From contig NZ_WOCA01000001.1 in the NCBI RefSeq assembly GCF_009728145.1, forward strand, positions 124,001 to 188,000: a DNA stretch of 64,000 nucleotides, read 5' to 3'. Shown here one piece after another: positions 16,757 through 51,440 of the stretch. This DNA is from Ornithinibacillus caprae. GTDB lineage: Bacteria > Bacillota > Bacilli > Bacillales > Amphibacillaceae. The notes beneath the pieces are model-generated. The model did not search any database, was not told the DNA's origin, and was given only the letters and a program-made list of their open reading frames with translations. Made by a program: the position numbers and the translations under genes. Each line of letters begins with the position of its first letter. Within the stretch, counting starts at the first letter, position 1.

Positions 16757-16829
16757 AAGCCTTTATGGTGAATACCTTCGTTACACTTATACAGGATGGG
16801 AAAGTTTAAACTTTCCTATCTGCCTAGTA
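16757..16829 (+). repeat. dispersed intergenic repeat, copy A (3' part only)
   Basis: This matches the right half of the ~150-bp repeat also found at 47711, 51101 and 51293. It shares CTTTATGG, CCTTCGTTACACTTATACAG (one base from copy C) and the end hairpin GGGAAAGTTTAAACTTTCC. The left half is missing. Confidence 0.7.
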
Positions 16830-16832
16830 AAA

Positions 16833-16866
16833 ACATCTGGTATGACTGCATACCAGATGTTTTTTT
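16833..16866 (+). terminator. pheST terminator
   Basis: A perfect 12-bp stem (16833-16844 with 16849-16860) with a 4-nt loop is followed by seven T residues. Confidence 0.9.
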
Positions 16867-17206
16867 CTAAGGCTTTTAAACCACTTACCCCGTCCCTTTC
16901 AAAAGGCAGAGTAATTTTTTTTATCCTGCATATAATGTGCAGTAAGCCCCCACTTCAAACCTACGAGGTCATATTGTAATTGGATAACTGCTGTCTTTTA
17001 AAATTTCTGTAATAGTATCCGCAAACTAATACAAAATAAAAGTATATTTTATTATTTTCTAACAGGCATTAAAATCGAGCTCAAGACTTCGAAATCAAAG
17101 ATGTAAAAAGGTATAATTGCCATTAAAAACCTGATTCGTTCAACTAACATTAGTGAGGATAAGAGCCCTCACTGAATAATTTTCACTTTAATTGTAAGGG
17201 GTACAG
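16867..17206. other. intergenic gap before the ykoP-like gene
   Basis: No gene is visible. A 7-bp hairpin (17152-17158 with 17167-17173) and a small CTGCA/TGCAG hairpin near 16925 are present. No clear promoter was found. Confidence 0.5.
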
Positions 17207-17764
17207 ATGCGAATGGATATTAGGAAAACCTGTCTACGAGTATGGAGTGTATGGGACCCAATTTATTATTCTTTGACAAGGCTAGAATATGTAGAAAATG
17301 AATGGGGGAACCGTACCATTATCCGTGTACGTCTAACTAAGTACAAGGGTAGAAGTATAAAGTTAATGGATGGGACGGTTATTCATAAAAATGATATCCT
17401 ATTAAAAATTCATTTGCATAATGTCAAGTTAATGAAAGAAGTTCAAACCTATGATAGTGACATTAGGAGAGCATTAATGATTTATAAAATTGTGGAGGAA
17501 TCTCTACCGACGCTGGTCAATTACATTGAATCACATGGATACAATAATAAAATTAAAGGACTTATTGGTATTACGACATTACACAAAGGGTGTAAAAAGC
17601 TAGGATTTGAAGTATATCCCTTCCGAAACAAATATTATAAATGGTTTAAGCAATTTGCCTTATTACCGATTCACCTTATCGCTACCTTAAATGTTAAAAG
17701 AGAAATTCCAACTCCGATGTATCTCATGATGTCAAAGAATGAGCTTTTTAAAAAGTACCATTAG
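17207..17764 (+). CDS. YkoP-like protein of unknown function
   Basis: The protein has 185 residues, is basic and has no signal peptide. From memory of the family it resembles B. subtilis YkoP: the N-terminal WDPIYYSLTRLEYV segment, the RVRLTKYKGR block near residue 42, HKNDILLKIHLHN near 70 and the GLIGITTLHKGCKKLGFE block near 130. A hydrophobic patch (FALLPIHLIATLNV, about 150-163) could be a membrane contact. YkoP-like proteins often sit near polysaccharide-deacetylase or glycosyltransferase genes; here the neighbours are two lipid kinases, which again points to the cell envelope, but no activity is known to me. AAGGGG lies six bases before the ATG. It is a single-gene unit. Confidence 0.6.
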   Translation: MRMDIRKTCLRVWSVWDPIYYSLTRLEYVENEWGNRTIIRVRLTKYKGRSIKLMDGTVIHKNDILLKIHLHNVKLMKEVQTYDSDIRRALMIYKIVEESLPTLVNYIESHGYNNKIKGLIGITTLHKGCKKLGFEVYPFRNKYYKWFKQFALLPIHLIATLNVKREIPTPMYLMMSKNELFKKYH

Positions 17765-18055
17765 CGTTTCATTAATTTGTTAACCAGAATCGGATCATTA
17801 TGGTGGAAGAAAATGCATCATACATAAAGATGTTTAGTATCTCATACACCATAGGATGATTAACTATATCCTACAATGATCCTAACATTTGCCGTTACGA
17901 GCAATTTTCCACGTTCTAAATATTTTCTTCCAAGAATTCCATAATAAGAACAAACTTATCCTTGTATATCTGCTGGATTTTGATCAGCGTGTACATAAAA
18001 GCAGTAGAACGGATGTAAAAGGTCTTCAAAAAGTAGAAAAACAGTCTCTGGTATG

Positions 18056-18952
18056 CTAAAGAACAGATAGAGTAGATGGAGAGATCATAATTTTTAACGG
18101 GGTTTCTCCTATGATTTCTCCATCTCCATGTGCTGTCATCGGTCTTTTGGAAAGAATCTCTAATTCTTTTGCTTTAAATATCGTAACTGCTGAGTGGTTT
18201 ACATGTTTTCCTTTGAAAACGGATGGAAATATTCGTAAAAGCTGCCACCTTGATATTTCCTTCACAATACAGACGTCAAAAAGTTGATCATCGTTTTTGG
18301 CGTTTGGGCATATCATCATTCCACCGGCATAAAATGGTGAATTTGCAATGGCGATTAACCATACATTTTGATGTTTAATAGGTTCCTGATCAATGTGTAA
18401 GTCAACATTTGTTGGCTTATAGTAAAATAAAACTTTCAGTACATTAATAATGTAGGAGAGGCTTCCCATTCCTGCTAAATTTAAGATTTTCTTGTTTTGA
18501 GATTGATTGGTTTTTTGAGCGACCTGGCCATCGAATCCAATTCCCACAATGGTTGCAAAGAACTTATTATTAATATGGCCAACGTCAATGGTTTTTTTGT
18601 CTCCTTTTAAGATACGTTCCAATGCTTGATCATATTTAAGGGGGATTCTCATGCCACGACAGAAATCATTTCCTGAACCCGCAGGAATAATTCCTAGTGG
18701 GATCTTAGAACCGATTAGTCCATTTATGATTTCGTGTACTGTACCATCCCCGCCAACCGCTATAATTGCTTTTACATTATTTTTTTTCATGATATCCTTT
18801 ACTAATTCCGATGCATGATGTGGGTGTTCCGTTATACTTACATCATAATCAATATGTTTTTCCTGAAGGAGTTTTGCAACGCGGCGCCAGATTTTCAAAG
18901 CCCTGCCACTGCCTGAATATTTATTGACAATAAAATAATACAATTTCATCAC
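18056..18952 (-). CDS. diacylglycerol/lipid kinase family protein (DagK-like), copy 1
   Basis: The protein has 298 residues of the YegS/BmrU/DagK family, which phosphorylates diacylglycerol or related lipids with ATP. The catalytic GGDGT is at 67-71, followed by GIIPAGSGNDF (87-97); the C-terminal beta-sandwich carries GDGE near residue 276. It starts with the family's N-terminal NKYSGSGRA. The first codon is a GTG (18950-18952) followed at once by ATG; both have only a weak upstream GGGTG, so the start is uncertain by one codon. It lies 72 bases downstream of a second member of the same family on the same strand. Confidence 0.87.
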   Translation of the reverse strand: MMKLYYFIVNKYSGSGRALKIWRRVAKLLQEKHIDYDVSITEHPHHASELVKDIMKKNNVKAIIAVGGDGTVHEIINGLIGSKIPLGIIPAGSGNDFCRGMRIPLKYDQALERILKGDKKTIDVGHINNKFFATIVGIGFDGQVAQKTNQSQNKKILNLAGMGSLSYIINVLKVLFYYKPTNVDLHIDQEPIKHQNVWLIAIANSPFYAGGMMICPNAKNDDQLFDVCIVKEISRWQLLRIFPSVFKGKHVNHSAVTIFKAKELEILSKRPMTAHGDGEIIGETPLKIMISPSTLSVL

Positions 18953-19024
18953 CCATTTTGATAAATTTATAACAAATATAACCTTCTATTCGTATAAATA
19001 TACAATATTTTTTAATCTATATTT

Positions 19025-19915
19025 TTAAGGCACAAAAACTTGAATGTGATGCGGTAGAACTACAAATTCCATATTGTCTACATCAACTTGATCACCATCT
19101 AGATTTACAATTACGTTTTCAGAAGTGGAAAAAGACCCTGATTTAATCTTGTAATAGTTTAATGGTGCAACCGTTTCCGTAAGGTGAAGCATTTTAGCAA
19201 ATAAAGCAAAAAACAAACGTATTCGATTCGTTTTTTTGCACGTTAGAAGGTGGAAATAGCCGTTATCCAAAGGTGTTGTATTAGTAATTAGGCTTTCTAA
19301 TGGTCCAACAGAATTCCCATTCATAATAATAAAATTAGAAAGATCCGATAGTTCCTTCTTGGGTGTAACACGAATGGATATCTTGTTGGATTGTTTTCCA
19401 TGTAATATAGCTTTTATAAAGTAAAGGCAATAAGCAAATTCACCAAAATAAGTTTTTAAAACGGTAGGAGTTTTATAGGTTATATCCGTTAACCAGCCCC
19501 CGGCAGCAATATTTGCAAAATAACGATTGCCAAATTTTCCGATATCTACTTTCTTCGTTTTTCCTTTTTTAATAATGGATAATACTTCCATCAGGTTAGA
19601 TGGCATTCCGATAAATTTAGCGAATTCATTACTTGTACCAAATGGGAAAATTCCTAAAGTTGGTCTATAATTCTGTTCTGCCAAACACTGAAGTGTACTT
19701 TTTATAGTACCATCTCCGCCAGCAATAAAGATGGCATCCCAATGGTCTTTACATGCTTCTTGAATGGCTTCTTCATTTTCCTTCCATTCGTTGGAAGAGT
19801 TAACGGTAACTTTATAACCGATTTCTTTCAGTTTTACTAATAGAATTTCAGTATATTTATGATTTCTCTTTTTTCCTGAAACGGGATTGTAAATCATTAA
19901 AGCTAGTTTTCCCAT
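19025..19915 (-). CDS. diacylglycerol/lipid kinase family protein (DagK-like), copy 2
   Basis: This 296-residue paralogue of the next gene carries NPVSGKKR (10-17), GGDGT at 66-70 and GIFPFGTSNEFA in place of the usual GTGNDFA. In the C-terminal domain it has NLDGDQ. It keeps the kinase loop, but its second nucleotide/substrate loop is diverged (SNEF rather than GNDF) compared with copy 1, so the two probably differ in substrate. GAGG lies five bases before the ATG. The pair forms a short minus-strand operon with this gene first. Confidence 0.87.
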   Translation of the reverse strand: MGKLALMIYNPVSGKKRNHKYTEILLVKLKEIGYKVTVNSSNEWKENEEAIQEACKDHWDAIFIAGGDGTIKSTLQCLAEQNYRPTLGIFPFGTSNEFAKFIGMPSNLMEVLSIIKKGKTKKVDIGKFGNRYFANIAAGGWLTDITYKTPTVLKTYFGEFAYCLYFIKAILHGKQSNKISIRVTPKKELSDLSNFIIMNGNSVGPLESLITNTTPLDNGYFHLLTCKKTNRIRLFFALFAKMLHLTETVAPLNYYKIKSGSFSTSENVIVNLDGDQVDVDNMEFVVLPHHIQVFVP

Positions 19916-20194
19916 ATTAATACCTCTTCATTGTATCTATTATGCCTCTATTTTTGTTCCGAGTCCCTGATTCGACTCATGTGATTAGGGAGGAGTAGGT
20001 AGAGGATGTATGTAAATGACTTACATTGATTTCTGGTCCTATAATTAAAGGTTTAATGATTTCTCCATTTCTAGACCTTCTTCCATTGGAGGAGATTCCA
20101 CAAATTGTAAAAGAATTGAAATCTCACTGGTATATTATTAACCATTTTTGTGAATTTTAATTACTGAGTGTTCAGAAAGGAGAATTTTATACAT

Positions 20195-20353
20195 ATGATT
20201 CCATTATTTAAGGGTATTGTAAGCAGTATGGTTCAATTGATTGAAGCGTTAGTTGAATTTGATTATGAAGAGGCCCTAAAAGAAGAAGCTAAAGAAACAG
20301 AACAAGGTGATTCCGCTTTTTATAATGAAGAACACCCATACATCAATGATTAA
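20195..20353 (+). CDS. small acidic protein of unknown function
   Basis: The protein has 52 residues starting MIPLFKGIVSSMVQLIEALVEFDYEEAL and ending in a very acidic, glutamate-rich tail. The first half could form an amphipathic or membrane-associating helix. The ATG at 20195 has AAGGAG 13 bases upstream, which is a little far; a GTG at 20168 would instead place that ribosome site inside the gene. It lies 110 bases before the dehydrogenase gene and could share its transcript. No family recognised. Confidence 0.45.
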   Translation: MIPLFKGIVSSMVQLIEALVEFDYEEALKEEAKETEQGDSAFYNEEHPYIND

Positions 20354-20463
20354 TTATGAAGGCGTTTTCTCTTTTCTGCATATTTACAAATACATGATGA
20401 ATAATTAGAAGCTCATTTGGATAGGATGGTTTCTAAATAATATAAAGGGATAGGTGTTATAGA

Positions 20464-21687
20464 TTGAAAGAATTACAATTCGATTATAAGCTGCCACGCT
20501 ATGTCTTTAGTAAAGCTGCAGGAAGATTTATGCGTTCACAATATTGGAATTCTAACCTGTCTTGCCTGAGGTTTAGAGAAGGTCCTGAACCAGAACTCCC
20601 CAATGAGGACTGGATAAAGGTAAAAGTTAAATATGGAGGTATTTGCGGAAGCGACTTAAATCTAATATTCCTCCATGATAGCCCAGCCATTTCTACCTAT
20701 GCTTCATTTCCTTTTACAATCGGACATGAAATTGTAGGTGAAATTTCGGAAACGGGAAAAAAAGTGAATGGGTTTTATACAGGTGAACGTGTAGTAATTG
20801 ATCCGATTCTTTCTTGTGAACCAAGAGGATTTTCCGAGCTATGTCCTGCTTGTCGTCAAGGAAACTTTAGCTTGTGTCTACATAAGACTGAAGGGTCGAT
20901 TGCACCAGGTTTATTAATCGGATCATGCCGTGATACTGGCGGTGGATGGAGTTCCTATGTGGTTGCCCATAAAAGTCAGGTGTTAAAACTTCCAGATAAA
21001 GTAGAAGATTTAAATGGAGCAATGGTCGAACCATTTAGCTGTGCTTTGCATAGTGTTTTGCAGAATCCACCTTCTAGGGATGATACGGTTTTAGTAATTG
21101 GCGGAGGGGTTATCGGGATTTGTGTTATAGCAGCTATGCGTGCGCTTGATTTAGATTGTAAGATTGTTGCCTTAGTTAAACATGAAGTTCAGGGCCGTTT
21201 TGCATCAGATTTTGGTGCGGATGAGATTATTTTTTTGAGGAATGAAGCGTATACACAGGAATTGGCCAAGTCCCTGGGAGGAAAAGTTCTAAAGCCAATA
21301 TTTGGTCCGGAAGTAATACAAGGTGGGGCAAATATTGTTTACGAATGTGTAGGAAGAAAACAAAGCATAAATGATGGAATACGTTTTTCCCGGACTGGCG
21401 GGAGGGTTGTACTGGTAGGACTTGCTGGAATCATTGATGGAATTGACTGGTCGATGGTATGGCTTAATGAATTAGACATTAAGGGAAGCTTTGCTTACAG
21501 CACCGAGGATTATCAAGGAAAAAGGGTAAGAACGTTTGATATTGCAATCGAGCTAATGCGTCTTGGAAAAGTTGACCTATCCCCATTGATTACACACAGG
21601 TACGCATTGGAGGATTTTAAAACAGCATTACAAACAGCAGCAAATAAGGGATCGCGAGCAGCAATGAAAGTAGTTTTTCAACCATAA
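20464..21687 (+). CDS. zinc-binding medium-chain alcohol dehydrogenase family protein
   Basis: The protein has 407 residues. The catalytic domain has Cys61 (GGICGSD) and GHE at 87-89 for the catalytic zinc, and four cysteines for the structural zinc (C118, C127, C130, C138). The spacing is wider than the usual lobe because of the inserted EPRGFSEL. The Rossmann domain has VIGGGVIG near residue 215. It is longer than typical (about 340-350) because of a ~45-residue N-terminal extension and the lobe insertion. It would oxidise an alcohol or sugar alcohol with NAD(P); the substrate is not evident. The TTG start has AGGTG seven bases upstream. It is followed 35 bases later by a class II aldolase gene, suggesting a two-step pathway on a polyol or sugar. 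Confidence 0.82.
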   Translation: MKELQFDYKLPRYVFSKAAGRFMRSQYWNSNLSCLRFREGPEPELPNEDWIKVKVKYGGICGSDLNLIFLHDSPAISTYASFPFTIGHEIVGEISETGKKVNGFYTGERVVIDPILSCEPRGFSELCPACRQGNFSLCLHKTEGSIAPGLLIGSCRDTGGGWSSYVVAHKSQVLKLPDKVEDLNGAMVEPFSCALHSVLQNPPSRDDTVLVIGGGVIGICVIAAMRALDLDCKIVALVKHEVQGRFASDFGADEIIFLRNEAYTQELAKSLGGKVLKPIFGPEVIQGGANIVYECVGRKQSINDGIRFSRTGGRVVLVGLAGIIDGIDWSMVWLNELDIKGSFAYSTEDYQGKRVRTFDIAIELMRLGKVDLSPLITHRYALEDFKTALQTAANKGSRAAMKVVFQP

Positions 21688-21722
21688 CTTAGTGAACACT
21701 TAAAGCAAAGGAGGAATGAATT

Positions 21723-22826
21723 TTGCAAAATTTCACAGTAACAGGAGACATAAAAACTTCTTTTCTATCATGGTTTACCGAAGGTTTAAAGGGAAAATTC
21801 TCGGATGAAGGATATGAATATTGCGAGGAGCCTGTTGATAATATTAGAGTGGTATTTAACATTCTTGATCAGGAGAAACCACGTCCATTTCGCCGAAAAG
21901 CACAAGCAACCTTTGTTGTATCGATAATTGAGAGAAATTTGGAGAAAGGGGTGAAGAATCCTGCCAATACCTTTGAATCCGCTTATCCTTATTTAATAAG
22001 ATCCTTGTCCAATCATTTAATTTATATTTTACATAATCGAGATCAAACCTATCTATATTTTGTTACACCGGAACAAGGTTTTTATAAACTAGAGTATGAA
22101 GAAGGGGAAACGGATTCTTTCTTCGAAAAAGTATTCAATAGATTAGAGCCGGTTGCTTCTTCTCAGCTAATTATCAATAATGAATTTACCGATGATTTAC
22201 CTAAAAAATTATGGAGTGGAAATCATCTAACAGAAAAAATGTACTTATCCGGCAAGAGGCTGGATGAAATGAATTTACTTCCTGCACCATTTCCATTGGA
22301 AAATTATTTGACTTCCCGTGATATGAGGCAGTTGAAAAAGTTATATGGTATTGGTGGTTTGAGTTACGGAAATATGAGTAGCAGAGAAGATGAGAAAAAT
22401 TTCTGGATGAGCGCAAGTGGTGTCAACAAAGCAAATATGCGGAAAATTGGACAAGATATCCTTTATATAACTGGGTTTAATGAGGGAAGCAATGCGATGA
22501 AGATCAGTGTACCACCTGAAATAACACCTAAAAGAGCATCAGTGGACGCTATTGAACATTGGATGATTTATAAGGAACATCCAGACGTAGGGGCGATTGT
22601 TCATATACATGCTTGGATGGACGGCATTGAGGCAACAGAGATTAATTATCCCTGTGGTACCATTCAACTAGCCGAGAACGTGTCAGATTTAGTTCGAAAT
22701 TCACCTGATCCTTCAAGAGCAGTCATTGGGTTGAAAAATCATGGTTTAACAATTACAGGACATGATTTGGATGATATCTTTGAACGAATAGAAGGAAAAG
22801 TTGTACCGCAAGTTCCGATGTCTTAA
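21723..22826 (+). CDS. class II aldolase/adducin domain protein with an unknown N-terminal domain
   Basis: The protein has 367 residues. Residues ~195-360 form a class II aldolase/adducin domain: GGLSYGNMSSR (211-221), SASGVNKANM (230-239), the zinc-ligand pair HIH at 294-296 and KNHG at 338-341. This fold includes fuculose- and rhamnulose-phosphate aldolases and related epimerases. The first ~190 residues are a separate region that I do not recognise; it contains the VVFNILDQEKPRPFRRKAQ segment and could be a regulatory or partner domain. The TTG start is preceded by AAGGAGG. It is in operon with the zinc dehydrogenase and probably acts on its product. The aldolase ends early (only ~25 residues after KNHG), shorter than usual. 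Confidence 0.72.
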   Translation: MQNFTVTGDIKTSFLSWFTEGLKGKFSDEGYEYCEEPVDNIRVVFNILDQEKPRPFRRKAQATFVVSIIERNLEKGVKNPANTFESAYPYLIRSLSNHLIYILHNRDQTYLYFVTPEQGFYKLEYEEGETDSFFEKVFNRLEPVASSQLIINNEFTDDLPKKLWSGNHLTEKMYLSGKRLDEMNLLPAPFPLENYLTSRDMRQLKKLYGIGGLSYGNMSSREDEKNFWMSASGVNKANMRKIGQDILYITGFNEGSNAMKISVPPEITPKRASVDAIEHWMIYKEHPDVGAIVHIHAWMDGIEATEINYPCGTIQLAENVSDLVRNSPDPSRAVIGLKNHGLTITGHDLDDIFERIEGKVVPQVPMS

Positions 22827-22984
22827 ACTATTAATTTAAAGAGCGTTTGCATCATGTATTAATATAAAGTGCACAGAACGAATCGAATAAAAATTAATAC
22901 TCGTAATGAAGCCATTAAACGTACTGGAGTTATCTTACAGACGAATACAACAACTAAATCTTAGTAGAAATTAGTATAAGATTC

Positions 22985-23044
22985 ACTCGCTATTTCCTCT
23001 CTTTTAATTAGCCACTATGAAAAAGGTTTTAGGATATAGCGAGT
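22985..23044 (+). terminator. possible long-loop hairpin
   Basis: ACTCGCTAT (22985-22993) pairs with ATAGCGAGT (23036-23044), 9 bp with a 42-nt loop. It could end the dehydrogenase-aldolase transcript, but no T-run follows; low support. Confidence 0.25.
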
Positions 23045-23069
23045 TTCTTCATGCTTCTTATTATAGATT

Positions 23070-23131
23070 TTAAGAGCGAGAAAGCCCATTTCTTTAGATG
23101 TGAGATGAATCGCCCTTTTTTGGTATTTAAA
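23070..23131 (+). mobile_element. possible IS200/IS605-type right-end remnant
   Basis: The stretch GAGAAAGCCCATTTC TTTAG ATGTGAGATGAATCGCC resembles the 3' hairpin end of IS605/IS1341-type elements (a GAAGCCC...GGG hairpin around TTTAG followed by ATGAATCGCC). The stem has decayed. It lies upstream of, not downstream of, the tnpB remnant, so it either belongs to a second lost element or was rearranged. Confidence 0.35.
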
Positions 23132-23191
23132 GTCAAAAAAGGGGATCGGGACATATGTTAACGGTTAGAATTAATGAAAATGACCAAAAAT

Positions 23192-23452
23192 CGAAAAACC
23201 CAAAACGGTAACTCATAGTCGTTATGAGTGCCCAAAAGCTCATCGGAAAACCCAAAACGGTAACTCATAGTCGTTATGAGTGCCCAAAAGCTCATCGGAA
23301 AACCCAAAACGGTAACTCATAGTCGTTATGAGTGCCCAAAAGCTCATCGGAAAACCCAAAACGGTAACTCATAGTCGTTATGAGTGCCCAAAAGCTCATC
23401 AAGAAACCCAAAATGGTAACTCAACAGAGTTATGAGCTCCACAAAAGCCCAT
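23192..23452 (+). repeat. tandem array of five 52-bp repeats
   Basis: Copies begin at 23192, 23244, 23296, 23348 and 23400. Copies 2-4 are identical, copy 1 differs at one base near its start, and copy 5 is diverged and 53 bp long. Each unit holds a short hairpin, ACTCATA-GTCGT-TATGAGT; in copy 5 this is replaced by AACTC-AACA-GAGTT. The 52-bp unit length shifts frame and gives stops, so it is not coding. Copy 5 runs directly into the tnpB remnant, so the array probably arose by tandem amplification at the edge of a decayed insertion sequence. Confidence 0.92.
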
Positions 23453-23720
23453 CGAAAAAGTATTAGAGAGAAAAATCAAACAAGGACAACCAATGTATAT
23501 AAAAAACGGGATAAAGGGTTCTATCTCTTTTGATGTGAAAGAACTAAAAGTAGAATCTACGACGACGTTGATGAGAAAGTGCATCGTCAAATTGTAAGTG
23601 TCGCTCAAACGAACGGTGTCGGTTTGATTCGAATGGAAGATTTGGCTATATTAGACATAAAGCCAAATCGAGAAAAGAAGCAGGACGTAATCTACATAAT
23701 AGCTTTGTTAATCTTAATCG
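23453..23720 (+). pseudogene. degenerate IS200/IS605-family tnpB remnant
   Basis: Translating across frames gives a TnpB-like track: KVLERKIKQGQPMYIKNGIKG and SISFDVKELKVEST, then after a frameshift near 23560 DEKVHRQIVSVAQTNGVG and LIRMEDLA, then after another shift near 23665 AKSRKEAGRNLHNSF. The (I/L)RMEDLA and GRNLH blocks are characteristic of the RuvC-like part of IS1341/IS605 TnpB. The frame is broken at least twice and stops before the C-terminal zinc ribbon, so no functional protein is made. The identification is by motif memory, not by search. Confidence 0.65.
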
Positions 23721-23725
23721 ATTAT

Positions 23726-23770: not shown

Positions 23771-23781
23771 CGTAATTGCTC

Positions 23782-24711
23782 TTATAAATAGGCTTTTGCT
23801 TTATTGGTATTGGCAAAGTGTATTTTCGCACAATGCTGCAGTACCGATTCTCCTTGTTCTTTAATAATTTTTGCAATGGTTTTGTCTACAAGCTTTGAAG
23901 CACCCTTTTTCAAAGGTATACCAATCTTTTCAGATAGTTTATCCATTTCATTAACAAAACTTGCTCTAGCTATAATGGATCCTGTAGCAACTGCGATAGA
24001 ATAGCTTTCTGCCTTTGTCATGAAATAGGTTTGATCGTGTAAGGATTGTCGTTCGGTTGCAATATGTTTTTTATATACACTTGGATCACAAAATTGATCA
24101 ATTAGGATCCCGTCCAACTGTTCGTTGCCAATCTTTTTTAAGAGGTTAGAAATGGCATGGTGATGTAACATTGCTTTCATTTTCCCTTGAGACCAGCCTT
24201 TTTTTTGAAGTGTATTATATTTTTCATTATGAAGGACAAGCAGGGAATATGGAATTTTTCGTTTCACGATTTCCTTCGATAACTCAGTAATTGTATCATC
24301 TGTTAAGTTTTTAGAGTCTTTAACACCTAATTGTTTAAGCAATGGTATATCCTCAGCTTTTACATATGCACAAGCTACTGTAATTGGTCCGAAATAATCC
24401 CCAGTTCCAGCTTCATCAGAACCAATGTGAGAGTTTGTAAACAATGATTGAGGTGGGGAGTAGGCCGAATTAGTTTTCACTGGTGCTATAGATTTGTTAC
24501 TTTTAACCTGATCTTCTACCCATTTTATCGCTTCTACTTCTGGTGAACTTCCTTGAAATAGTACTTTTCCGGATTTATAAGCAGTTATAACTGCATTTGT
24601 AGTTTTTGCCCGGAATATTGCACCTTGTGGTACGTTCGTTAATGATTTATGATAATATTGTTTCATAGCTTCTATTGTTTCGGTGGATAATTTGTAAACA
24701 GTTTGTGGCAT
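23782..24711 (-). CDS. rnhC: ribonuclease HIII
   Basis: The protein has 309 residues and removes RNA from RNA-DNA hybrids, including R-loops, in Firmicutes that carry RNase HIII. The N-terminal TBP-like hybrid-binding domain is at about 1-85. The catalytic type 2 RNase H domain begins with SDEAGTGDYFGP at 98-109 (Asp99, Glu100), followed by GVKDSKNLTD and the later acidic residues around ILIDQFCD. The SDEAGTGD form, rather than GxDE(A/V)GRG, marks HIII rather than HII. It is divergent from zapA, the same arrangement as in B. subtilis. Confidence 0.96.
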   Translation of the reverse strand: MPQTVYKLSTETIEAMKQYYHKSLTNVPQGAIFRAKTTNAVITAYKSGKVLFQGSSPEVEAIKWVEDQVKSNKSIAPVKTNSAYSPPQSLFTNSHIGSDEAGTGDYFGPITVACAYVKAEDIPLLKQLGVKDSKNLTDDTITELSKEIVKRKIPYSLLVLHNEKYNTLQKKGWSQGKMKAMLHHHAISNLLKKIGNEQLDGILIDQFCDPSVYKKHIATERQSLHDQTYFMTKAESYSIAVATGSIIARASFVNEMDKLSEKIGIPLKKGASKLVDKTIAKIIKEQGESVLQHCAKIHFANTNKAKAYL

Positions 24712-33842: not shown

Positions 33843-33961
33843 ATCTATCTTCATCTATTATCATATTTTTGTAGCATGGAAAGTGAAAGCCTTTCCATGA
33901 TCGGATAAGTACAACTAGGGTATTCGCTATAATTATTTGCGAATAAAAAGGAGGATAACAT

Positions 33962-43660: not shown

Positions 43661-44485
43661 TTGAATAAACCAATTGGTGTCATTGACTCTGGTGTCGGTG
43701 GCCTAACGGTAGTACATGAGCTTATGAGACAGCTACCAAAAGAAAAACTGATTTATTTAGGTGATACACTTAGATGTCCCTATGGACCGAGACCAGAACA
43801 TGAAGTAGTTCAGTTTACATGGGATATGGTAGAGTTCTTGTTGGAAAAAGACGTGAAAATGATTGTTGTCGCTTGTAATACAGCAACTGCATATACATTA
43901 AAGGAATTACAAGATCATTTGAGTATTCCTGTTGTTGGAGTTATCCAACCTGGTGCACGTGCAGCAATAAAGAATACGAAAAATAACCATGTAGGTATTA
44001 TAGGTACGGAGGGAACAATTCGAAGTAATGCCTATATAGAAGCTCTACAATATATTAAGTCTGATTTAGACATAAATGCTTTAGCTTGTCCACTTTTTGT
44101 ACCTATGGTTGAACAAGGGATATTAAGCGGTCTACAGGCTGAAGAAATTGTAAAAGAGTCACTTCAACCTCTTATGAGATATAAAGATGATATGGATTCG
44201 TTAATATTAGGGTGTACTCACTATCCTTTAATAAGAGAAGTTATCCAAAAAGTACTTGGTCCCCAAGTTACATTAATTTCATCTAGTGAAGAAACAGCAA
44301 GAGAAACAAGCGCAATATTAGAGTTTCATCAATTATTAAATACAGGAAACGAGCAAACAAATCATCAATTTTATACGACTGGTGAATTGGAAATTTTTAC
44401 GGAAATCACGAAGAGTATTTTTAATAGTTCCATTGATAATTTACAAGCTGTTACGATTGAAAAAGCTGTGATTGCGAGAAATTAG
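43661..44485 (+). CDS. racE: glutamate racemase
   Basis: This 274-residue enzyme makes D-glutamate for peptidoglycan. Both catalytic cysteines are present, in VVACNTATA and LGCTHYPL, along with the N-terminal GVIDSGVGGLTV and CPYGPR. I prefer the TTG at 43661, which gives the family's N terminus (MNKPIGVIDSG) and has AGAGG eight bases upstream; the ATG at 43625 inside the previous gene has no good ribosome site and would add 12 residues. A terminator follows. Confidence 0.93.
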   Translation: MNKPIGVIDSGVGGLTVVHELMRQLPKEKLIYLGDTLRCPYGPRPEHEVVQFTWDMVEFLLEKDVKMIVVACNTATAYTLKELQDHLSIPVVGVIQPGARAAIKNTKNNHVGIIGTEGTIRSNAYIEALQYIKSDLDINALACPLFVPMVEQGILSGLQAEEIVKESLQPLMRYKDDMDSLILGCTHYPLIREVIQKVLGPQVTLISSSEETARETSAILEFHQLLNTGNEQTNHQFYTTGELEIFTEITKSIFNSSIDNLQAVTIEKAVIARN

Positions 44486-44516
44486 GGTTCTTTATATAAA
44501 GGACCCTAATTTTTTT
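44482..44516 (+). terminator. terminator after racE
   Basis: TTAGGGT-CTTT pairs with AAAG-ACCCTAA (44482-44509), followed by seven T residues. Confidence 0.9.
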
Positions 44517-44598
44517 GTGCTAGAAATAATAAACGTTGGTCTAATTTTTGAATAGGCTCGTATATATAATAGTACAAACCATCGTAGGAGGGAATCAC

Positions 44599-45687
44599 AT
44601 GCGAAAGCACCGATTATTATTAATAATGGCTATCAGTATCTCGATTATATTGACAGGCTGTTTCCAAGGAGAACAATCACTTGAAGAAATGGATCCACCT
44701 CAGGATGCAGAAGCAGTAGATAATGATTTAACTTCTAGCATTCAATCAGAAGATAGTGAAGGGGAAAATGAAGAGGTAACTGAGAGTGAAGAGACAGCTG
44801 AAGAAAAAACCGTAGAAAGAGAACTGTATTTAATTGATTCAAATGGAATGGTTGCATCGCAAACATTAGAATTACCAATTCCAGAATCGAAAGAGGTTGC
44901 AACACAAGTATTAGAGTATTTAGTGAAAGATGGTCCAGTAACGCAAATGCTACCAAATGGCTTTCAAGCAGTACTGCCAGCTGATACAGAAGTTTTAGGC
45001 CTTGAATTAGAAGAAGATGGTACACTTATTGTTGATTTATCAGAGGAGTTTACCGAATATGATGCAAAAGAAGAAATTAAAATTCTTGAAGCAATGACAT
45101 ATACACTAACACAATTTGAAAATGTAGAACAAGTAAAATTGTGGGTTAATGGACATGAACAAGAAGTAATGCCTGTTAATGGAACTCCAATTGGTGACGG
45201 CTATTCTAGAGCTAATGGTATTAATGTAACGGAATCAGATAATATTGACCTTATTAATAGCAAGGCTGTAACGATGTATTTTCCTGCAGAACATGATGAT
45301 AATCAATATTTTGTTCCTGTGACACAACATGTAAAAGCGGAAAATGGAGATGCGCTTCAAGCGATCGTAGATTCATTGGTTGATGGACCTGGGTATGTGA
45401 CAAATCTAATGCATGTATTTAATGCAGGTGCACAATTGGTAGAAACTCCAAATCTACAAAACGGTGTTTTAGATTTGGTATTTAATGAAAATGTATTACA
45501 GGATATGGATAATTCTGTGATTTCTGATGAAGTTATGGAGACATTAGTTAGAACATTAACGGAACAACAAGACGTTGAAGCTGTTAATGTAAGGGTTGAA
45601 AATGTCGAACAGCTTGTTAATGAAAATGGTGAAGCATATTCGGAGCCAGTGACGAAAGAAACGTTTTTACCATCGGAAAAATTCTAG
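44599..45687 (+). CDS. gerM: spore germination/sporulation lipoprotein GerM
   Basis: This 362-residue lipoprotein has a signal peptide with lipobox LTGC (Cys21), then an acidic, low-complexity linker (about 30-85), then two tandem GerMN domains (about 95-220 and 230-355). The paired ELPIPESKEVATQVLEYLVKDG and NGDALQAIVDSLVDGPG segments mark the two copies. GerM contributes to sporulation and germination in B. subtilis. The ATG at 44599 has GGAGGG seven bases upstream; the longer frame from 44548 would put 17 residues before the signal peptide. Confidence 0.93.
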   Translation: MRKHRLLLIMAISISIILTGCFQGEQSLEEMDPPQDAEAVDNDLTSSIQSEDSEGENEEVTESEETAEEKTVERELYLIDSNGMVASQTLELPIPESKEVATQVLEYLVKDGPVTQMLPNGFQAVLPADTEVLGLELEEDGTLIVDLSEEFTEYDAKEEIKILEAMTYTLTQFENVEQVKLWVNGHEQEVMPVNGTPIGDGYSRANGINVTESDNIDLINSKAVTMYFPAEHDDNQYFVPVTQHVKAENGDALQAIVDSLVDGPGYVTNLMHVFNAGAQLVETPNLQNGVLDLVFNENVLQDMDNSVISDEVMETLVRTLTEQQDVEAVNVRVENVEQLVNENGEAYSEPVTKETFLPSEKF

Positions 45688-45810
45688 TTAGAAAAGCTGC
45701 TAGTCTATTGTTAAAACATGCTAACAAATGTTAGTGTGTTTTTTGTTTTTTAATACATGCTTTTGTACAAAATATGTTAAGCTAATGTTGGAAAGAGGAG
45801 GAGTTTTTTC

Positions 45811-46572
45811 ATGAGAGAAGATCTAAGAAATACGAACCAATTAAGACCAATTACTATGATACCTAATTTTGTAAAACATCCAGAAGGCTCTGTGCTAATT
45901 CAAGTAGGAGAAACAAAAGTAATATGTAATGCAAGCATTGAAGATAGAGTTCCTCCTTTTATGCGCGGTCAAGGAAAGGGATGGATTACCGCCGAATATT
46001 CAATGCTCCCAAGAGCAACACAAGAGCGAAACATACGAGAATCATCTAAAGGGAAAGTTAGCGGGAGAACGATGGAAATTCAACGGTTGATCGGACGGGC
46101 GCTTCGTTCCGTAGTCGATCTAAACGTAATTGGAGAAAGAACGGTTTGGGTGGATTGTGATGTTATTCAAGCAGATGGTGGAACAAGGACTGCTTCCATA
46201 ACGGGAGCTTTTGTTGCTGTTGTATTAGCCTTTGGAAAAATGCTAGAACAGAAAAAAATGAATAAAATGCCAGTTACAGATTTTTTAGCTGCTACATCGG
46301 TTGGCGTGTTAGCAGATGGAACGGAGATACTGGATTTGAATTATGAGGAAGATTCAAAGGCTGCAGTGGATATGAATATAGTTATGACAGGTGCTGAGGA
46401 GTTTGTAGAAATACAAGGTACAGGAGAAGAGGCTACCTTTTCATTTACTCAGTTGCAAATGATGCTTAATTTGGCAAATGAAGGTTTGAAGCAAATCATT
46501 GATATCCAGAAAGAGACGTTAGGTGATTTAGCAGTTCGTATTGGCGAGACAATTAAAGATGGTGATAAATGA
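45811..46572 (+). CDS. rph: ribonuclease PH
   Basis: This 253-residue phosphate-dependent 3'-5' exoribonuclease trims tRNA 3' ends and works as a hexamer. The family landmarks [29 protein letters not shown] and [16 protein letters not shown] are intact, with [15 protein letters not shown] as the phosphate and metal region. It overlaps rdgB by 4 bases. The order gerM-rph-rdgB-ysnB matches B. subtilis. Confidence 0.96.
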
Positions 46573-47165
46573 TGAAAAAAGTAGTTATTGCTACAAAAAA
46601 TAAAGGAAAAGCTTTGGAGTTTAAATCATTATTTAAAAAATATAATATTGAAGCAATCTCTTTGTTAGAGTTAGAAAAAGAAGTACCAGATGTTGAGGAA
46701 ACAGGAACTACATTTCAAGAAAATGCTGCATTAAAGGCGGAAGAAATAGCTAATCTGTTAAATACACCAGTATTAGCTGATGATTCGGGGTTAGAAATCG
46801 ATGCATTGGATGGTAGACCAGGGATATTTTCTGCTAGATATGCAGGCGAACAAAAAGATGATCAGGCAAATATAGACAAAGTCTTGAAAGAACTAAAAGA
46901 AGTTCCTGAAAAAGGTCGGTCCGCGCGTTTTGTATGTGTATTAGCAATTGCAATTCCAGGAGAAGAAACCATTTTTCGCACTGGTTACTGTGAAGGAGAA
47001 ATAAATACAGAACAAAAAGGAGATAATGGCTTCGGTTATGATCCTATTTTTATTCCAAATGGATATGAATTGACTATGGCCGAGCTAGAACCTGAAGAGA
47101 AAAATAGCATAAGTCACCGCAAAAATGCAATTATTCAATTAGAGGATTGGCTAAAAACCATGTAA
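46569..47165 (+). CDS. rdgB: XTP/dITP diphosphatase (non-canonical purine NTPase)
   Basis: This 198-residue Ham1/RdgB-family enzyme hydrolyses ITP, dITP and XTP so that they are not built into nucleic acids. Substrate and metal motifs are [15 protein letters not shown] (4-18), [25 protein letters not shown] and [15 protein letters not shown], with the C-terminal SHRKNAI. Two adjacent ATG codons could serve as start; the first overlaps the rph stop in the ATGA manner. Confidence 0.96.
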
Positions 47166-47190
47166 CTACTTTATCAGAAGAGGTGAGCTT

Positions 47191-47706
47191 ATGAATCGCG
47201 TGTTATTAGTAAGTGATAGCCATGGACTAACAAACGAATTAGAAAAAATAAAAAGTCGACATGATTGTACATACATGTTTCATTGTGGAGATTCAGAGCT
47301 AGAAATAGATAAACCAGAGTTGGAAGGCTTTATAAAAGTTGCAGGCAATTGTGATTTTGATCCCCGTTATCCTGAAGAACAGGTTACCGACATAGGAAAT
47401 CTTAGGTTTTTTGTGACGCATGGTCATCTACATCAAGTTAAAATGAATATGATGACAATTTCGTATAGAGCAGAAGAACTAGGGACAAATGTTGTTTGTT
47501 TCGGTCATACTCATATAGCTGGTGCTGAAAAAATTGGAAAACAATTATTCATTAATCCAGGAAGCATTCGACTCCCTAGAAATAGGGTGGAAAGAACGTA
47601 TGCCATTGTGGAGTGGGAAACGATAAGTGATATTAAAGTTGATTTTTACACCGTAGAGGGTGAATTAGTTCCAGATATGTCATACAAAACAAGTCTTACT
47701 GAATAA
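47191..47706 (+). CDS. ysnB: YsnB/YfcE-type metallophosphoesterase
   Basis: This 171-residue calcineurin-like phosphodiesterase has metal ligands in VSDSHG (7-12), HCGDSE (30-35), GNCD (52-55), THGH (75-78) and GHTH (108-111), the complete MJ0936/YfcE set. Its natural substrate is not established. AAGAGGTGAG precedes the ATG. It is last in the gerM-rph-rdgB group. A repeat element (copy B) begins 4 bases after the stop. Confidence 0.9.
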   Translation: MNRVLLVSDSHGLTNELEKIKSRHDCTYMFHCGDSELEIDKPELEGFIKVAGNCDFDPRYPEEQVTDIGNLRFFVTHGHLHQVKMNMMTISYRAEELGTNVVCFGHTHIAGAEKIGKQLFINPGSIRLPRNRVERTYAIVEWETISDIKVDFYTVEGELVPDMSYKTSLTE

Positions 47707-47710
47707 ATTT

Positions 47711-47862
47711 GTTTTTAGCAGATAGGAAAGCATAAACTTCCCTATCCTGCATAAGTGCATCGAAGGCTTTTGCCATAAATGCTTGTACTCAGGGAGTATA
47801 AGGGCTTCAAAAAAGTAAAGAACTCTTTTCAAGAATCTCTTTAACAATAGCCAAGTTTTCTA
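47711..47862 (-). repeat. dispersed intergenic repeat, copy B (full length)
   Basis: This is a full-length copy in reverse orientation to A, C and D. Read on the minus strand it contains TGTTAAAGAGATTCTTGAAA, AGCCCTTATACTC, CCTTCGATGCACTTATGCAG and the end hairpin GGGAAGTTTATGCTTTCC. It abuts a 17-bp terminator. Confidence 0.85.
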
Positions 47863-47911
47863 ACATGCTTTTCAAAGGGTTTCATTAACCTTTGAAAAGC
47901 ATGTTATTTTT
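47862..47911 (+). terminator. strong terminator upstream of the tRNA promoter
   Basis: A perfect 17-bp stem (47862-47878 with 47889-47905), a 10-nt loop, then ATTTTTT. It isolates the tRNA unit from the rph-ysnB operon. Confidence 0.92.
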
Positions 47912-47924
47912 TAAAAAAAAAGTG

Positions 47925-47953
47925 TTGACAATGACAGGTATAATCCATATAAT
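47925..47953 (+). promoter_or_regulatory. consensus sigma-A promoter of the tRNA unit
   Basis: A perfect TTGACA (47925-47930), a 17-bp spacer and a perfect TATAAT (47948-47953). Transcription should start near 47960, about 185 bases before tRNA-Gly. Confidence 0.9.
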
Positions 47954-47984
47954 AAATCTTGTGACCAAAAATGAAACACATATT

Positions 47985-48140
47985 TATATGGCTTTACGCG
48001 GATGTAGTTACGAGCATAACATCCATCGAAAAAGCTTCGAGTTGCCTTGAAGCACCAATCATCATTGAATAAACTTGCAGATGTAGAGGCATAGCTTGCC
48101 CAAATGATGTGCGTGAAACCAATGAATTATTTATAAACCT
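47985..48140 (+). ncRNA. structured leader of the tRNA unit (candidate ncRNA)
   Basis: Stems visible by eye: GGATGT/ACATCC (48000-48005, 48019-48024), GCTTC/GAAGC (48034-48038, 48049-48053), CATCATT/AATGATG (48060-48066, 48103-48109), the last enclosing GGCA/TGCC (48088-48091, 48097-48100). The sequence at 47992-48009 matches 16 of 18 bases around the tRNA-Gly 5' end at 48139-48156. It may be a tRNA-derived remnant or a small RNA processed from the tRNA precursor. Confidence 0.3.
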
Positions 48141-48144
48141 TTAT

Positions 48145-48218
48145 GCGGGTGTAGTTTAGTGGTAAAACCTCAGCCTTCCAAGCTGATGTCGAGGGTTCAA
48201 TTCCCTTCACCCGCTCCA
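48145..48218 (+). tRNA. tRNA-Gly (anticodon TCC)
   Basis: A full cloverleaf with acceptor GCGGGTG pairing with CACCCGC, anticodon stem TCAGC/GCTGA and loop CTTCCAA giving anticodon TCC (reads GGA), T-arm GAGGGTTCAATTCCCTT, and CCA encoded at 48216-48218. Confidence 0.97.
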
Positions 48219-48225
48219 TACATAT

Positions 48226-48299
48226 GTCCCAGTAGCTCAGCTGGATAGAGCAACAGCCTTCTAAGCTGTGGGTCGCAGGTTCGAATCCTGCCTGGGACG
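48226..48299 (+). tRNA. tRNA-Arg (anticodon TCT)
   Basis: The acceptor GTCCCAG pairs with CTGGGAC; anticodon stem ACAGC/GCTGT with loop CTTCTAA gives anticodon TCT (reads AGA). The T-arm is CGCAGGTTCGAATCCTGC. Discriminator G; the 3' CCA is not encoded, unlike in the neighbouring tRNA-Gly. Confidence 0.96.
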
Positions 48300-48310
48300 T
48301 AACCTAAAAT

Positions 48311-48352
48311 AAAACCTAATCCTTTGTTATATAAGGGATTAGGTTTTGTTTA
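48311..48352 (+). terminator. terminator of the tRNA unit
   Basis: AAAACCTAATCC (48311-48322) pairs with GGATTAGGTTTT (48336-48347), followed by a T-rich tail. Confidence 0.85.
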
Positions 48353-48549
48353 TTTCTTTGATTGACCACTGTATTATCAATAAAAAAATGACGTTTGGGT
48401 ATCAATAAGGCGAGACTATTGTAAATAAGGGTGATCAGGAGATAGTTTATTCTTAAATAGGGTTAACTTGTTTACGTTAGATTTAATTTTTTAGGAAAAT
48501 TTATATATACTATTAAGTAAATCCAAATTTGCATAAAAGGAGGGAATAT

Positions 48550-49530
48550 ATGGAAAGTGAAAATGAGAAGATCATACTTTTTCCTAAATGGAGAAAGGCA
48601 TTGGAGGAAGAAAGCTTAGAAGCTTTGAAAGCGAAAAGATATGAAGAAGCATTATCAAAGTTAAATCAACTTATAAGTTTTCAGATACATAATCATGAAA
48701 TTATCATAGGAAAATTGATTTGCTTGATGGAATTAGGTAGACACCAAGAAGCTCAAGAGCTTTGTGAAGAGGTAATGAGTGTAAAGGATGAAGATTATTA
48801 TCACTATGTACATATTTATCTAACCATCCTGTTTCAAACGAATCAATACAGTCTGTTGATGGATCAGGTTGATTATGAACTTGAGACTCAGGATATACCA
48901 TATATGATACGTGAACAGTTTAAACAACTTTATGATGTAAGCTCAAAGATGATTAAAGATGCAAAAAATGAGGAAACAACAGAATATCTACTGGAATTAC
49001 AAGAAGCGGTTGAACAACAAGACCATTTAAAACAATGGCGTCTTATTGAGAGTTTACGAAAATTTAAATCCAACCCAGATAGGAAAGTTATTCAGTTATT
49101 GAAAAATGAACATGTACATCCTGTTATAAAGACAGCAATATTTCTTTGGTTACAGGATAACGAAATATCGGAAATAGTTGATGTCCAAAAGCTTGGCTTT
49201 CAACTACATGTGAATCCTTCAGATATGGTGGATTTACAATCACATACAACCATTAAACAAACCATGGTACTAATAAATGAATTAGAGCAAAAGAACCCAT
49301 CACTATACCAATTACTGACCCAATTATTAAACCGTTATGCCTACGTAAGGTATCCTTTATTACCAACTAGTGAGGATGTAACGGATCTTGCTGAAGCTTT
49401 ACTCTATATCGGGGAAGAAATGTTGAATATACATAATGGAAATAGGGAAGAACTGACAGATAAACAAAAATATTATATCAATGAAATACAAGTGTGTGAA
49501 CAGTTGTATTTAAGTATTATAGAAGACTAA
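48550..49530 (+). CDS. ysoA: TPR-repeat protein, YsoA-like
   Basis: The protein has 326 residues, is all-helical and highly charged, with no signal peptide. The region ~15-150 looks like tetratricopeptide repeats: EALKAKRYEEALSKLNQLISF and NHEIIIGKLICLMELGRHQEAQELCEEV are consecutive repeat units. The rest is helical with no recognised domain. The length is close to that of B. subtilis YsoA, which sits at the same place before tig. The ATG at 48550 has AAAGGAGGG eight bases upstream. The function is unknown; TPRs suggest protein binding. Confidence 0.85.
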   Translation: MESENEKIILFPKWRKALEEESLEALKAKRYEEALSKLNQLISFQIHNHEIIIGKLICLMELGRHQEAQELCEEVMSVKDEDYYHYVHIYLTILFQTNQYSLLMDQVDYELETQDIPYMIREQFKQLYDVSSKMIKDAKNEETTEYLLELQEAVEQQDHLKQWRLIESLRKFKSNPDRKVIQLLKNEHVHPVIKTAIFLWLQDNEISEIVDVQKLGFQLHVNPSDMVDLQSHTTIKQTMVLINELEQKNPSLYQLLTQLLNRYAYVRYPLLPTSEDVTDLAEALLYIGEEMLNIHNGNREELTDKQKYYINEIQVCEQLYLSIIED

Positions 49531-49715
49531 GGAAAACTCATTGCCTTAATTGCTTGAAAGGCATAATAATTATGGTATAATTAGGTGGTTGTAAATTTGA
49601 GATTCAACATAGCTTCCATACATATTATCTCGTTTGTAATTATGATGGGACGCATTTGACATTTTAAAATTGATAGAAATAATCAATGGAAATAATAGAT
49701 TTTGGAGGGAATTAT

Positions 49716-51002
49716 ATGTCAACAAAATGGGAAAAACAAGAAGGTAACGAAGGGGTATTAACCTTCGGAGTAACTGCTGAGGAATTTGATACTGCTTTAG
49801 ATAAAGCTTTTAAAAAAGTAGTAAAAACTGTTCAAATTCCAGGTTTCCGTAAAGGTAAAGTTCCACGTGGTATTTTTGAAAAACGATTTGGTGTAGAATC
49901 TTTATATCAAGACGCTGTAGATATCGTATTACCTGATGCATACATGAAAGCGATCGAAGAAGCAGGAATTGAGCCAATTGATCAACCTTCAATTGATATT
50001 GAAGAAATTGAAAAAGGAAAAGATCTTGTTTTTACAGCGCAGGTTACTGTGAAACCAGAGGTGAAATTAGGTGACTATAAAGGTCTAGAAGTGGAAGAGC
50101 AAGATACTACTGTTACAGACGAAGACGTTGACAATGAATTAGAACAATTAAGAGAGCGTCATGCAGAGCTTATCGTAAAAGAAGACGGTAAAGTTGAGAA
50201 TGGTGACACAGTTGTTATGGACTTTGAAGGTTTCCTTGATGGAGAAGCTTTTGATGGAGGAAAAGGTGAAAACCATTCCTTAGAAATCGGTTCTGGACAA
50301 TTTATTCCTGGTTTTGAAGAGCAATTAGTAGGTAAGGAAGCTGGAGAAGAAACTGAAATTGAAGTTACTTTCCCAGAGGATTATCATGCAGAAGAGCTAG
50401 CTGGTAAAAAAGCACAATTTAAAGTGAAAGTCCATGAAATTAAAACAAAAGAATTACCAGAGCTTGACGACGAATTTGCCAAAGATGTTGATGAAGAAGT
50501 TGAAACGCTAGAAGAATTAAAGAATAAGAAAAAAGAAGAGCTCGAATCTCAAAAGAAACAGGATGCAGATAATCAAAAACGTGAAACGTTAATTGAAAAA
50601 GCTTCAGAAAATGCTGAGGTAGATATTCCAGAAGCAATGGTTGATACAGAGTTAGATCGTATGGTGAAAGAGTTTGAACAACGTTTACAAATGCAAGGTA
50701 TGACAATGGAAATGTATTTCCAATTCTCTGGTCAAGATGAATCTGCATTGAAAGAGCAAATGAAAGAAGATGCAGGTAAACGAGTAAAAACAAATCTAAC
50801 ACTTGAAGCAATTGCTAATGCTGAGGAACTTGAAGCATCTGATGAAGATGTTCAAGCAGAACTTGAAAATATGGCAACGATGTATGGTACAGATGTTGAG
50901 CAACTTAAGCAAATGCTTGGTGGTAACGCAGATGCCATTAAAGAAGATTTGAAATTTAGAAAAGCAATTGACTTTTTAGTTGAGAATAGTAAAGCAGTTT
51001 AA
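49716..51002 (+). CDS. tig: trigger factor
   Basis: This 428-residue ribosome-associated chaperone and prolyl isomerase has an N-terminal ribosome-binding domain (about 1-145) with the signature GFRKGKVPR (44-52). The FKBP-type isomerase domain is at about 160-245 ([21 protein letters not shown]). The C-terminal helical arm domain, rich in Glu and Lys, covers the rest. GGAGGG lies seven bases before the chosen ATG; the frame extends ten codons further upstream without a ribosome site. It is followed by clpX, as in most Firmicutes. Confidence 0.97.
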
Positions 51003-51036
51003 TATAATTGCTTTACCAGAATTAAACATACAGAAT

Positions 51037-51068
51037 AAAACAAGGTGCGGATCTTCGCACCTTGTTTT
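51037..51068 (+). terminator. tig terminator
   Basis: A perfect 13-bp stem (51037-51049 with 51056-51068) with a 6-nt loop, ending in TTTT. Confidence 0.9.
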
Positions 51069-51100
51069 ACACTATATACGTATCTTTTCAAGGATAAGTC

Positions 51101-51245
51101 AAAAAACTTGGTTTTGTTAAAGAGACTCCTGAACAAGGGTTCTCAGCTTTTTTAGCAGATATTGTTAAGTACAAGTCTTTATGGCAAAAGCCTTCGTTGC
51201 ACTTATACAGCATAGGAAAGCATATACTTTCTTAGCTGCTAAATA
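51101..51245 (+). repeat. dispersed intergenic repeat, copy C (full length)
   Basis: This is a full-length copy in forward orientation: AAAAACTTGGTTTTGTTAAAG at its left, then CTTTATGGCAAAAGCC, CCTTCGTTGCACTTATACAG and the end hairpin ATAGGAAAGCATATACTTTC. Copy D follows 47 bases later in the same orientation. Confidence 0.85.
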
Positions 51246-51292
51246 AATTATCAACAAAAAGATCATGTAATTCATAGGTTGTATCATATACT

Positions 51293-51440
51293 ATTAGAGA
51301 ACTTGGCTTTTGTTAAAGGGATTCTTGAAATGAGTTCTTAGCTTTTTTAGAAGCCCTTATACTCTTTAGTACAATCTTTATGGAAAATCCTTAGTTGCAC
51401 GTATGCAGGATAGCAAGAACCATACTTTTTGAACTGCCGA
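51293..51440 (+). repeat. dispersed intergenic repeat, copy D (full length)
   Basis: It shares TGTTAAAGGGATTCTTGAAA and AGCCCTTATACTC with copy B and CCTTAGTTGCACGTATGCAG with the family core. The end hairpin is decayed (GATAGCAAGAACCATACTTTTT), so this is the most diverged copy. Confidence 0.8.

Follow-up and report, generated by a model that had tools for sequence, protein, structure and literature searches.

A small palindromic repeat of Ornithinibacillus caprae and other Bacillales, found at T-tracts and oriented with respect to replication

Copies in the window and anatomy of the element

The stretch of DNA analysed here, called the window, covers 64 kb of the draft genome of Ornithinibacillus caprae, a salt-loving Bacillus relative (G000:C11:124001-188000; host assembly of 4.16 Mb in 40 contigs). 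Between its genes, among them pheT, tig and clpX, lie copies of a short palindromic repeat element (Table 1). An earlier note on this DNA had listed four copies, and all four are genuine, with borders that we corrected from the sequence, BLAST and a covariance model (CM). The copy at pheT, which had been placed at 16757-16829 and taken for a right half only, is a complete short-form element that matches the CM over model positions 1-93, and at its left end it overlaps the stop codon of pheT. Copy 5 occupies a 119-bp gap separating two 257-aa frames, and copy 2 has TTTTTA on its target side, at 47712-47717 of the + strand. The borders of copies 2, 3 and 4 were set from the ribosomal RNA (rRNA) leader junctions described below. 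The palindromic right hairpin can give a weaker antisense model match atop a copy (window 16787-16870); the host-wide model listing contained no antisense double match for copy 1.

Table 1. Copies of the element and the adjoining pheT terminator in the window; the borders of copy 1 are approximate.
Feature	Position in window	Strand	Evidence
Copy 1, short form, TTAG..CTGC	16735-16823	+	CM match 16736-16828, 86.5 bits; sequence
pheT terminator hairpin, A-tract and T-tract, just past copy 1	16829-16866	+	sequence; right-flank stem score 37
Copy 5, decayed	33866-33958	-	CM 37.2 bits, E 4.6e-6
Copy 2, long form	47718-47863	-	CM 77.2 bits; sequence; own-genome BLAST
Copy 3, long form, tig-clpX gap	51099-51239	+	CM 57.7 bits
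Copy 4, long form, tig-clpX gap, decayed right hairpin	51294-51437	+	CM 39.2 bits

As read from the aligned copies, the basic unit is an element of about 88 bp, TTAG...CTGC, with two predicted hairpins flanking TTAGTTGCACTTATGCAG. The short form can be written as TTAGAAAACTTGG[Y]NNNN[R]CCAAGCCTTTAT-GG[Y]NNNN[R]CC-TTAGTTGCACTTATGCAG-GATAGGAAAG-TTTATA-CTTTCCTATC-TGC. Stem P1 is the pairing of the two NNNN arms, in which the variants GGCATTC, GGCTTTT and GGTTGTC are matched by their complements, and the GGAAAG/CTTTCC hairpin recognised in the earlier note corresponds to stem P3. The long form (about 145 bp), represented by three window copies, differs from the short form by some 58 additional bases within P1; the size of about 150 bp given before thus holds for the long form and not for the short unit. 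The part specific to the long form gave only two stray matches, of 21 to 31 bases, among the 40 relatives searched. No terminal inverted repeats were present in the aligned copies.

Changes on both sides of a stem that preserve its pairing amount to 45 cells, against 18.9 in shuffled alignments, in a set of 25 own and related-genome copies that are not independent of each other. For P1 there were 17 such changes against 4.4 shuffled (21 sequences from 21 genomes), and in the same 21 sequences further pair types were no more numerous than after shuffling (203/500). Alignment A2 contains 25 of the 28 copies extracted from 29 tried (L026, L063 and L065 omitted; L064 not bounded), and alignment A3 contains 17 of the 23 loci L188-L210 together with L367-L369 and L087. 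Folded as single-stranded DNA, each strand of two short copies gives two main hairpins, with z from -3.2 to -7.4.

Spread of the family and evidence of movement

The host genome contains at least 149 CM matches at E<=1 (150 of 2798 candidates scored), 128 of them at E<1.2e-4, and the 128 best matches are mutually non-overlapping. Own-genome BLAST gave at least 41 matches for each of two queries (40 candidates scored). Here and below copy counts are lower bounds, model E-values are rough and genes are open frames. The window copies are thus members of a dispersed family, as had been proposed, and BLAST and the CM make this family larger than the note had said. Family-wide, matches occur in 67 of 146 genomes (counting the host) and in 24 of 46 genera. 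In the other 79 of the 146 genomes this model had no match at E<=1e-4, which argues that the matches are not due to chance. At this cut-off 30 of 299 genomes matched across several families of the order. Seventeen diverged relatives from outside the family mostly retain (AAAG/TTAG)AAAACTYG and TAGTTGC.CTTAT; two diverged relatives of one family of the order (f46, L377 and L383) have a differing right-hand part, which is longer in L377.

Copies differ in age between genomes as far as identity tells: among the matches listed, a genome of another genus (G075) has 15 copies with a median identity of 0.97 and a maximum of 1.00, and in the host the median is 0.75 over 60 of the best-scoring copies. 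With Rfam 15, no family reached its gathering score over any copy in the window, and ten loci compared at E<=10 yielded neither a family at cut-off over a copy nor a group II match; one sub-threshold overlap, with snoJ26 (21.6 bits, cut-off 50), lay over an rRNA-leader copy. Neither the exact core pattern, searched in viral contigs, nor one own copy, searched in plasmids and phages, gave a match. The one partial plasmid match, in Arthrobacter citreus CP053689, came from a diverged relative. No description of the repeat was recognised in the best-ranked papers of the open-licence literature.

Filled and empty sites show that the element has moved. At one point between boxA and 16S, five 16S leaders of the host are filled (C13, C15, C24, C27, C36) and three are empty (C25, C28, C35), and at the same point in a genome of the same genus (G004) three are filled (C15, C54, C97) and three empty (C60, C61, C69). 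The leader alignment comprised 13 of these 14 leaders (C61 omitted) and one leader of G002. With ^ marking the junction, the empty leader reads AGTATGT^CAAGAAAAAC-loop-GTTTTTC (C25, C28) and the filled one AGTATGT^TTAG...CTGC^CAAGAAAAGC (C15, C24); set against the empty C25 and C28, the right side of the filled junction in C15 and C24 is CTGC^CAAGAAAA. Three filled leaders vary from this: a T replaces C at the right in C27, a single base is changed at the left in C13, and C36 has three extra bases further right. The target duplication at these junctions is at most one base, with no target loss, and a duplication statistic over 85 of the 124 copies outside rRNA operons found none (best excess 0.048). 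The junctions also show that the A-run at the right end (Y-A5 to A6) belongs to the target.

Two species of the genus thus carry the element at the same leader point. Leaders from 30 family genomes, one per genome, gave two confident matches, in the host and in G004. The G004 leader copies have a sequence only partly in common with those of the host, with the long right stem still kept, and the shared point represents either one old insertion under structural constraint or two insertions at the same point. As a separate observation, the 16S leaders of one genome come in two kinds, with and without the element (L154 226-315 and L464-L466 in the host; L218 and L468-L471 in G004), so that the operons of a single cell should yield unlike precursor rRNAs. 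In rRNA leaders of other genera (L219 of G016, L223 of G075) the length and sequence between boxA and 16S vary widely by eye, so this stretch may tolerate other insertions.

The nearest named relatives by trigger factor are Oceanobacillus limi (92%), Ornithinibacillus halophilus (87%) and Lentibacillus populi (85%). The copy in the pheT gap was absent from all ten other genomes of the genus, by eye and by model, and both tig-clpX copies were absent in O. limi and Orn. halophilus, the two nearest. Matches at other points of the tig-clpX gap occur in Virgibacillus subterraneus (33.8 bits) and Lentibacillus jeotgali (36.8 bits). Right after the T-run of the pheT terminator, one locus (L400, G001) has a stretch ..GAGATATAAGAAAGTATAAA.. 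that by eye resembles the start of a decayed opposite-strand copy; it gave no model match at E<=1. The earlier note had named an old local duplication as the alternative, expected if only four copies existed and orthologous gaps always carried them. With at least 149 matches, and with pheT and tig-clpX gaps that are empty in relatives, that alternative falls away. Its suggestion of a non-autonomous mobile unit is supported by the co-occurrence of filled and empty rRNA leaders in the host, by the empty orthologous gaps and by the near-identical copies in another genome.

Target, orientation and possible mechanism

Four of the 128 host copies are rRNA-leader copies and were excluded from the flank, gene-neighbour, RNA-strand and skew tests, and anchoring succeeded for 85 of the remaining 124. 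In these 85 the right flank is [C/T]AAAAAA, with 71-88% A at +2..+7, and the left flank shows no preference. On the opposite strand the element therefore comes after TTTTTR, often the T-tract of a terminator. A hairpin score of at least 22 was reached by 40/128 right flanks and 1/128 left flanks, compared to 0/128 and 1/128 at 150 bp away (Fisher 1e-12). In two single-contig genomes of other genera, the copies among the matches listed reached a score of at least 20 at 7/15 right and 1/15 left flanks (G075) and at 2/12 right and 0/12 left flanks (G090). Some right ends abut ribosome-binding sites instead, by eye. Since a hairpin stands beside a share of the copies and ribosome-binding sites at some right ends, the basic target is an A/T-tract, of which terminators are one main supply.

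Orientation follows replication. In 101 of 122 host copies the + strand of the element lies opposite the leading strand (binomial 1e-13), two of the 124 copies being excluded for weak skew. Copies with both neighbours on the leading strand are antisense or sense to them in a ratio of 64:8 (65 for 64 in the unrounded table), and those with both on the lagging strand in a ratio of 5:7 (Fisher 7e-4), and for this reason replication accounts for the orientation bias better than transcription. The regional skew switch was obeyed by 12/12 listed copies in G090 and 14/15 in G075, with origin and terminus positioned by eye from the skew, and the local skew by 10/12 and 14/15, which combines to 26/27 by regional and 24/27 by local skew. 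In G090 the right gene is sense in 4/12 copies and the regional direction is still followed. Of the 123 host copies for which a gene was called on the right, 94 have that gene directed towards the element, and a frame of at least 100 aa is overlapped by 6/124 copies. Both the T-tract or terminator target and the replication orientation go beyond what the earlier note had described.

From these sequence patterns it is on balance probable that the repeat is a non-autonomous palindromic mobile element, in a form of about 88 bp and a long form of about 145 bp, that becomes joined to the single-stranded lagging-strand template at T-tracts. The strand 5'-TTTTTR^GCAG....CTAA-3' would be joined while single-stranded. 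At the fork the hairpins of the element and the terminator hairpin of the target could form on the exposed template, and the joining enzyme would act in trans on the element hairpins. Terminators may be favoured mainly because they often supply T-tracts between genes and because an insertion does little harm there. As the likeliest enzyme we tentatively name a single-strand transposase of the HUH/Y1 group, similar to those of IS200/IS605 or to RAYT. In the excerpts consulted (this holds for all papers cited here), IS200/IS605 transposases are hairpin-binding enzymes that use the lagging-strand template and insert on the 3' side of a short target, creating no duplication (PMC6006769, PMC7290912).

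Several results weigh against this interpretation. No mobilising gene or autonomous parent was found: by local alignment, the element ends stood out at 1/40 Y1 loci and 0/30 reverse transcriptase (RT) loci, which were part of all matches and covered 1.5 kb to either side. That one Y1 locus (L248) has a whole copy 1.2 kb away. Y1 genes occur in 20/21 element-bearing and also in 16/20 element-free genomes, and G024, with at least 29 element matches, has no Y1 gene at E<=0.001. One IS605 set is described as without strand preference, with 10/22 tnpA on the leading strand (PMC7290912). A strong terminator hairpin adjoins only the 40 of 128 host copies mentioned above and 2/12 in G090, and the long copy tested folds less clearly (z -1.8 and -2.4). 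The leading strand of the host was deduced from flank skew near the copies in a draft of 40 contigs, and three of the four good window copies (16735, 51099, 51294) have the minority orientation, the skew of the window being positive. Two G090 copies lie in stretches with reversed local skew; these and the one-base uncertainty at the junctions slightly lower our confidence.

As a neighbour or phyletic tracker of the element, RAYT/Y1 was not supported by locus and presence comparisons or by scanning 40 loci for motifs. Of 30 Y1 loci from element-bearing genomes, one, of IS200 type, had a copy within 1.5 kb, and RAYT-like frames of about 170-226 aa were seen by eye in 13/21 element-bearing and 7/20 element-free genomes. 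The single Y1 match of G075 is a RAYT-like frame of 186 aa. At L266 (G108), the left-end-like TTAGAAAACTCGG stands near a shortened RAYT-like frame, at a distance of about 60 bp, with an alignment score above six shuffles and below the cut-off.

Retro-mobilisation, in which an RNA of the element would be copied into lagging-template T-tracts past terminators by a group IIC intron RT or similar, in the manner of a short interspersed element (SINE), seems quite unlikely. It would explain the missing target duplication, and group IIC introns indeed insert directly past rho-independent terminators on the template of lagging-strand synthesis, one-sidedly in Firmicutes (PMC8919778, PMC10190682). However, the A-run is target and not a tail, and pairing reveals no RNA strand: in P1 and P3 of 30 of the 124 copies G-U stands at 46 against 32 A-C, and at 31 against 30 once one subfamily-dominated pair is set aside. 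An RNA of 88 nt is also too small for a group II ribozyme and cannot act as one. RT genes, counted by eye, failed as a tracker, with 15/22 element-bearing and 12/20 element-free genomes and seven bearing genomes without any. Because the element is so small and gives no RNA-strand signal, an IS200/IS605-type process is favoured over a group IIC-type one. A bacterial SINE analogue that borrows terminator-seeking lagging-strand machinery, from a group IIC intron or another retro- or single-strand DNA system, is similarly doubtful, and no more readily accepted is its corollary of a spread through the order Bacillales with occasional capture by host RNAs, the 16S leader for example.

The same G-U counts, with no clear excess on either strand, speak against a functional RNA or DNA element retained at terminators (as fail-safe terminator, 3'-end stabiliser or rRNA leader part) and spread by selection. 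This explanation would account for stems preserved by compensatory change, for the terminator-like hairpin seen by eye past the right end in 13/17 diverged relatives and for the occurrence in 16S leaders of two species with the right stem rebuilt. It is very unlikely, given that 79 of 146 family genomes have no match, corresponding gaps are empty in relatives and orientation tracks replication and not genes alone. A classical miniature inverted-repeat transposable element with a DDE transposase would likewise be short, non-coding, multicopy and intergenic; the lack of terminal inverted repeats and a target duplication of at most one base make it highly improbable. Another single-strand or site-specific recombination system, such as an integron-like folded site or an IS110 or IS91 type, would fit the missing duplication, folded ends and strand bias, and we regard it as unlikely.

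One small bacterial repeat here unites the lack of target duplication, a T-tract and often terminator target, and strong replication orientation, a combination that makes the mechanism testable with simple genetics. Strand-exposed insertion near T-runs hints at how such small repeats spread, and within one genome the element is present in the 16S leader of some rRNA operons and absent from others.

Two further features of the window concern other subjects. The frame at 13265, which is followed by the pheT-like frame, has a T-box leader (Rfam RF00230) upstream, at 12968-13199. A tandem array of about five copies of a 52-bp unit, 99% alike except for the last (84%), occupies 23190-23449 in the gap ahead of the reverse frame at 23782.

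Comparison with known systems

One close likeness is to PATE, the palindrome-associated transposable elements of Haloquadratum (PMC3119063), which are described as lacking terminal inverted repeats and target duplications, as carrying palindromes close to their ends and as too short for a transposase. The element, too, lacks terminal inverted repeats, has palindromes near both ends and shows no duplication beyond one base. PATE palindromes match IS605-type transposons of their host, whereas no parent of the element was found at the Y1 loci examined; PATE belongs to haloarchaea and the element to Bacillales, and a T-tract target and a strand bias are not mentioned for PATE in the excerpts consulted. 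The earlier note had called the repeat BOX/REP-like, which is correct as to kind, since it is palindromic, intergenic and without a frame. REP/REPIN sequences with RAYT are likewise intergenic and of high copy number, with a hairpin, a 5' tetranucleotide and a Y1 lagging-strand link (PMC6006769). The marks of REP that were compared are missing: the tag in alignments A2 and A3 is TTAG and not GT[AG]G, and the element is an 88-bp unit of two unlike hairpins in direct order, of which no copy was found beside the RAYT genes examined. Group IIC introns share the target after rho-independent terminators and the preference for the lagging-strand template (PMC8919778, PMC10190682), but the element, with 88 nt, has neither ribozyme nor reverse transcriptase.

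The B. subtilis genome also has a 190-bp repeat. Within Bacillales, the repeats bcr1-bcr18 of the Bacillus cereus group have 100-400 bp and mobile features; by description, bcr1 differs in its restriction to that group, and the mobility of these repeats is linked to TTTAT motifs (PMC6542083). Bant-1 and Bhal-1 are described as intergenic structured Bacillus families of 72-74 bp (PMC2267715), and going by this description alone they could be kin of the order-wide relatives; Oceanobacillus is not mentioned in the excerpted text of that paper. No described family matched the element at its cut-off in Rfam 15 or was recognised as the same repeat in the open-licence papers.

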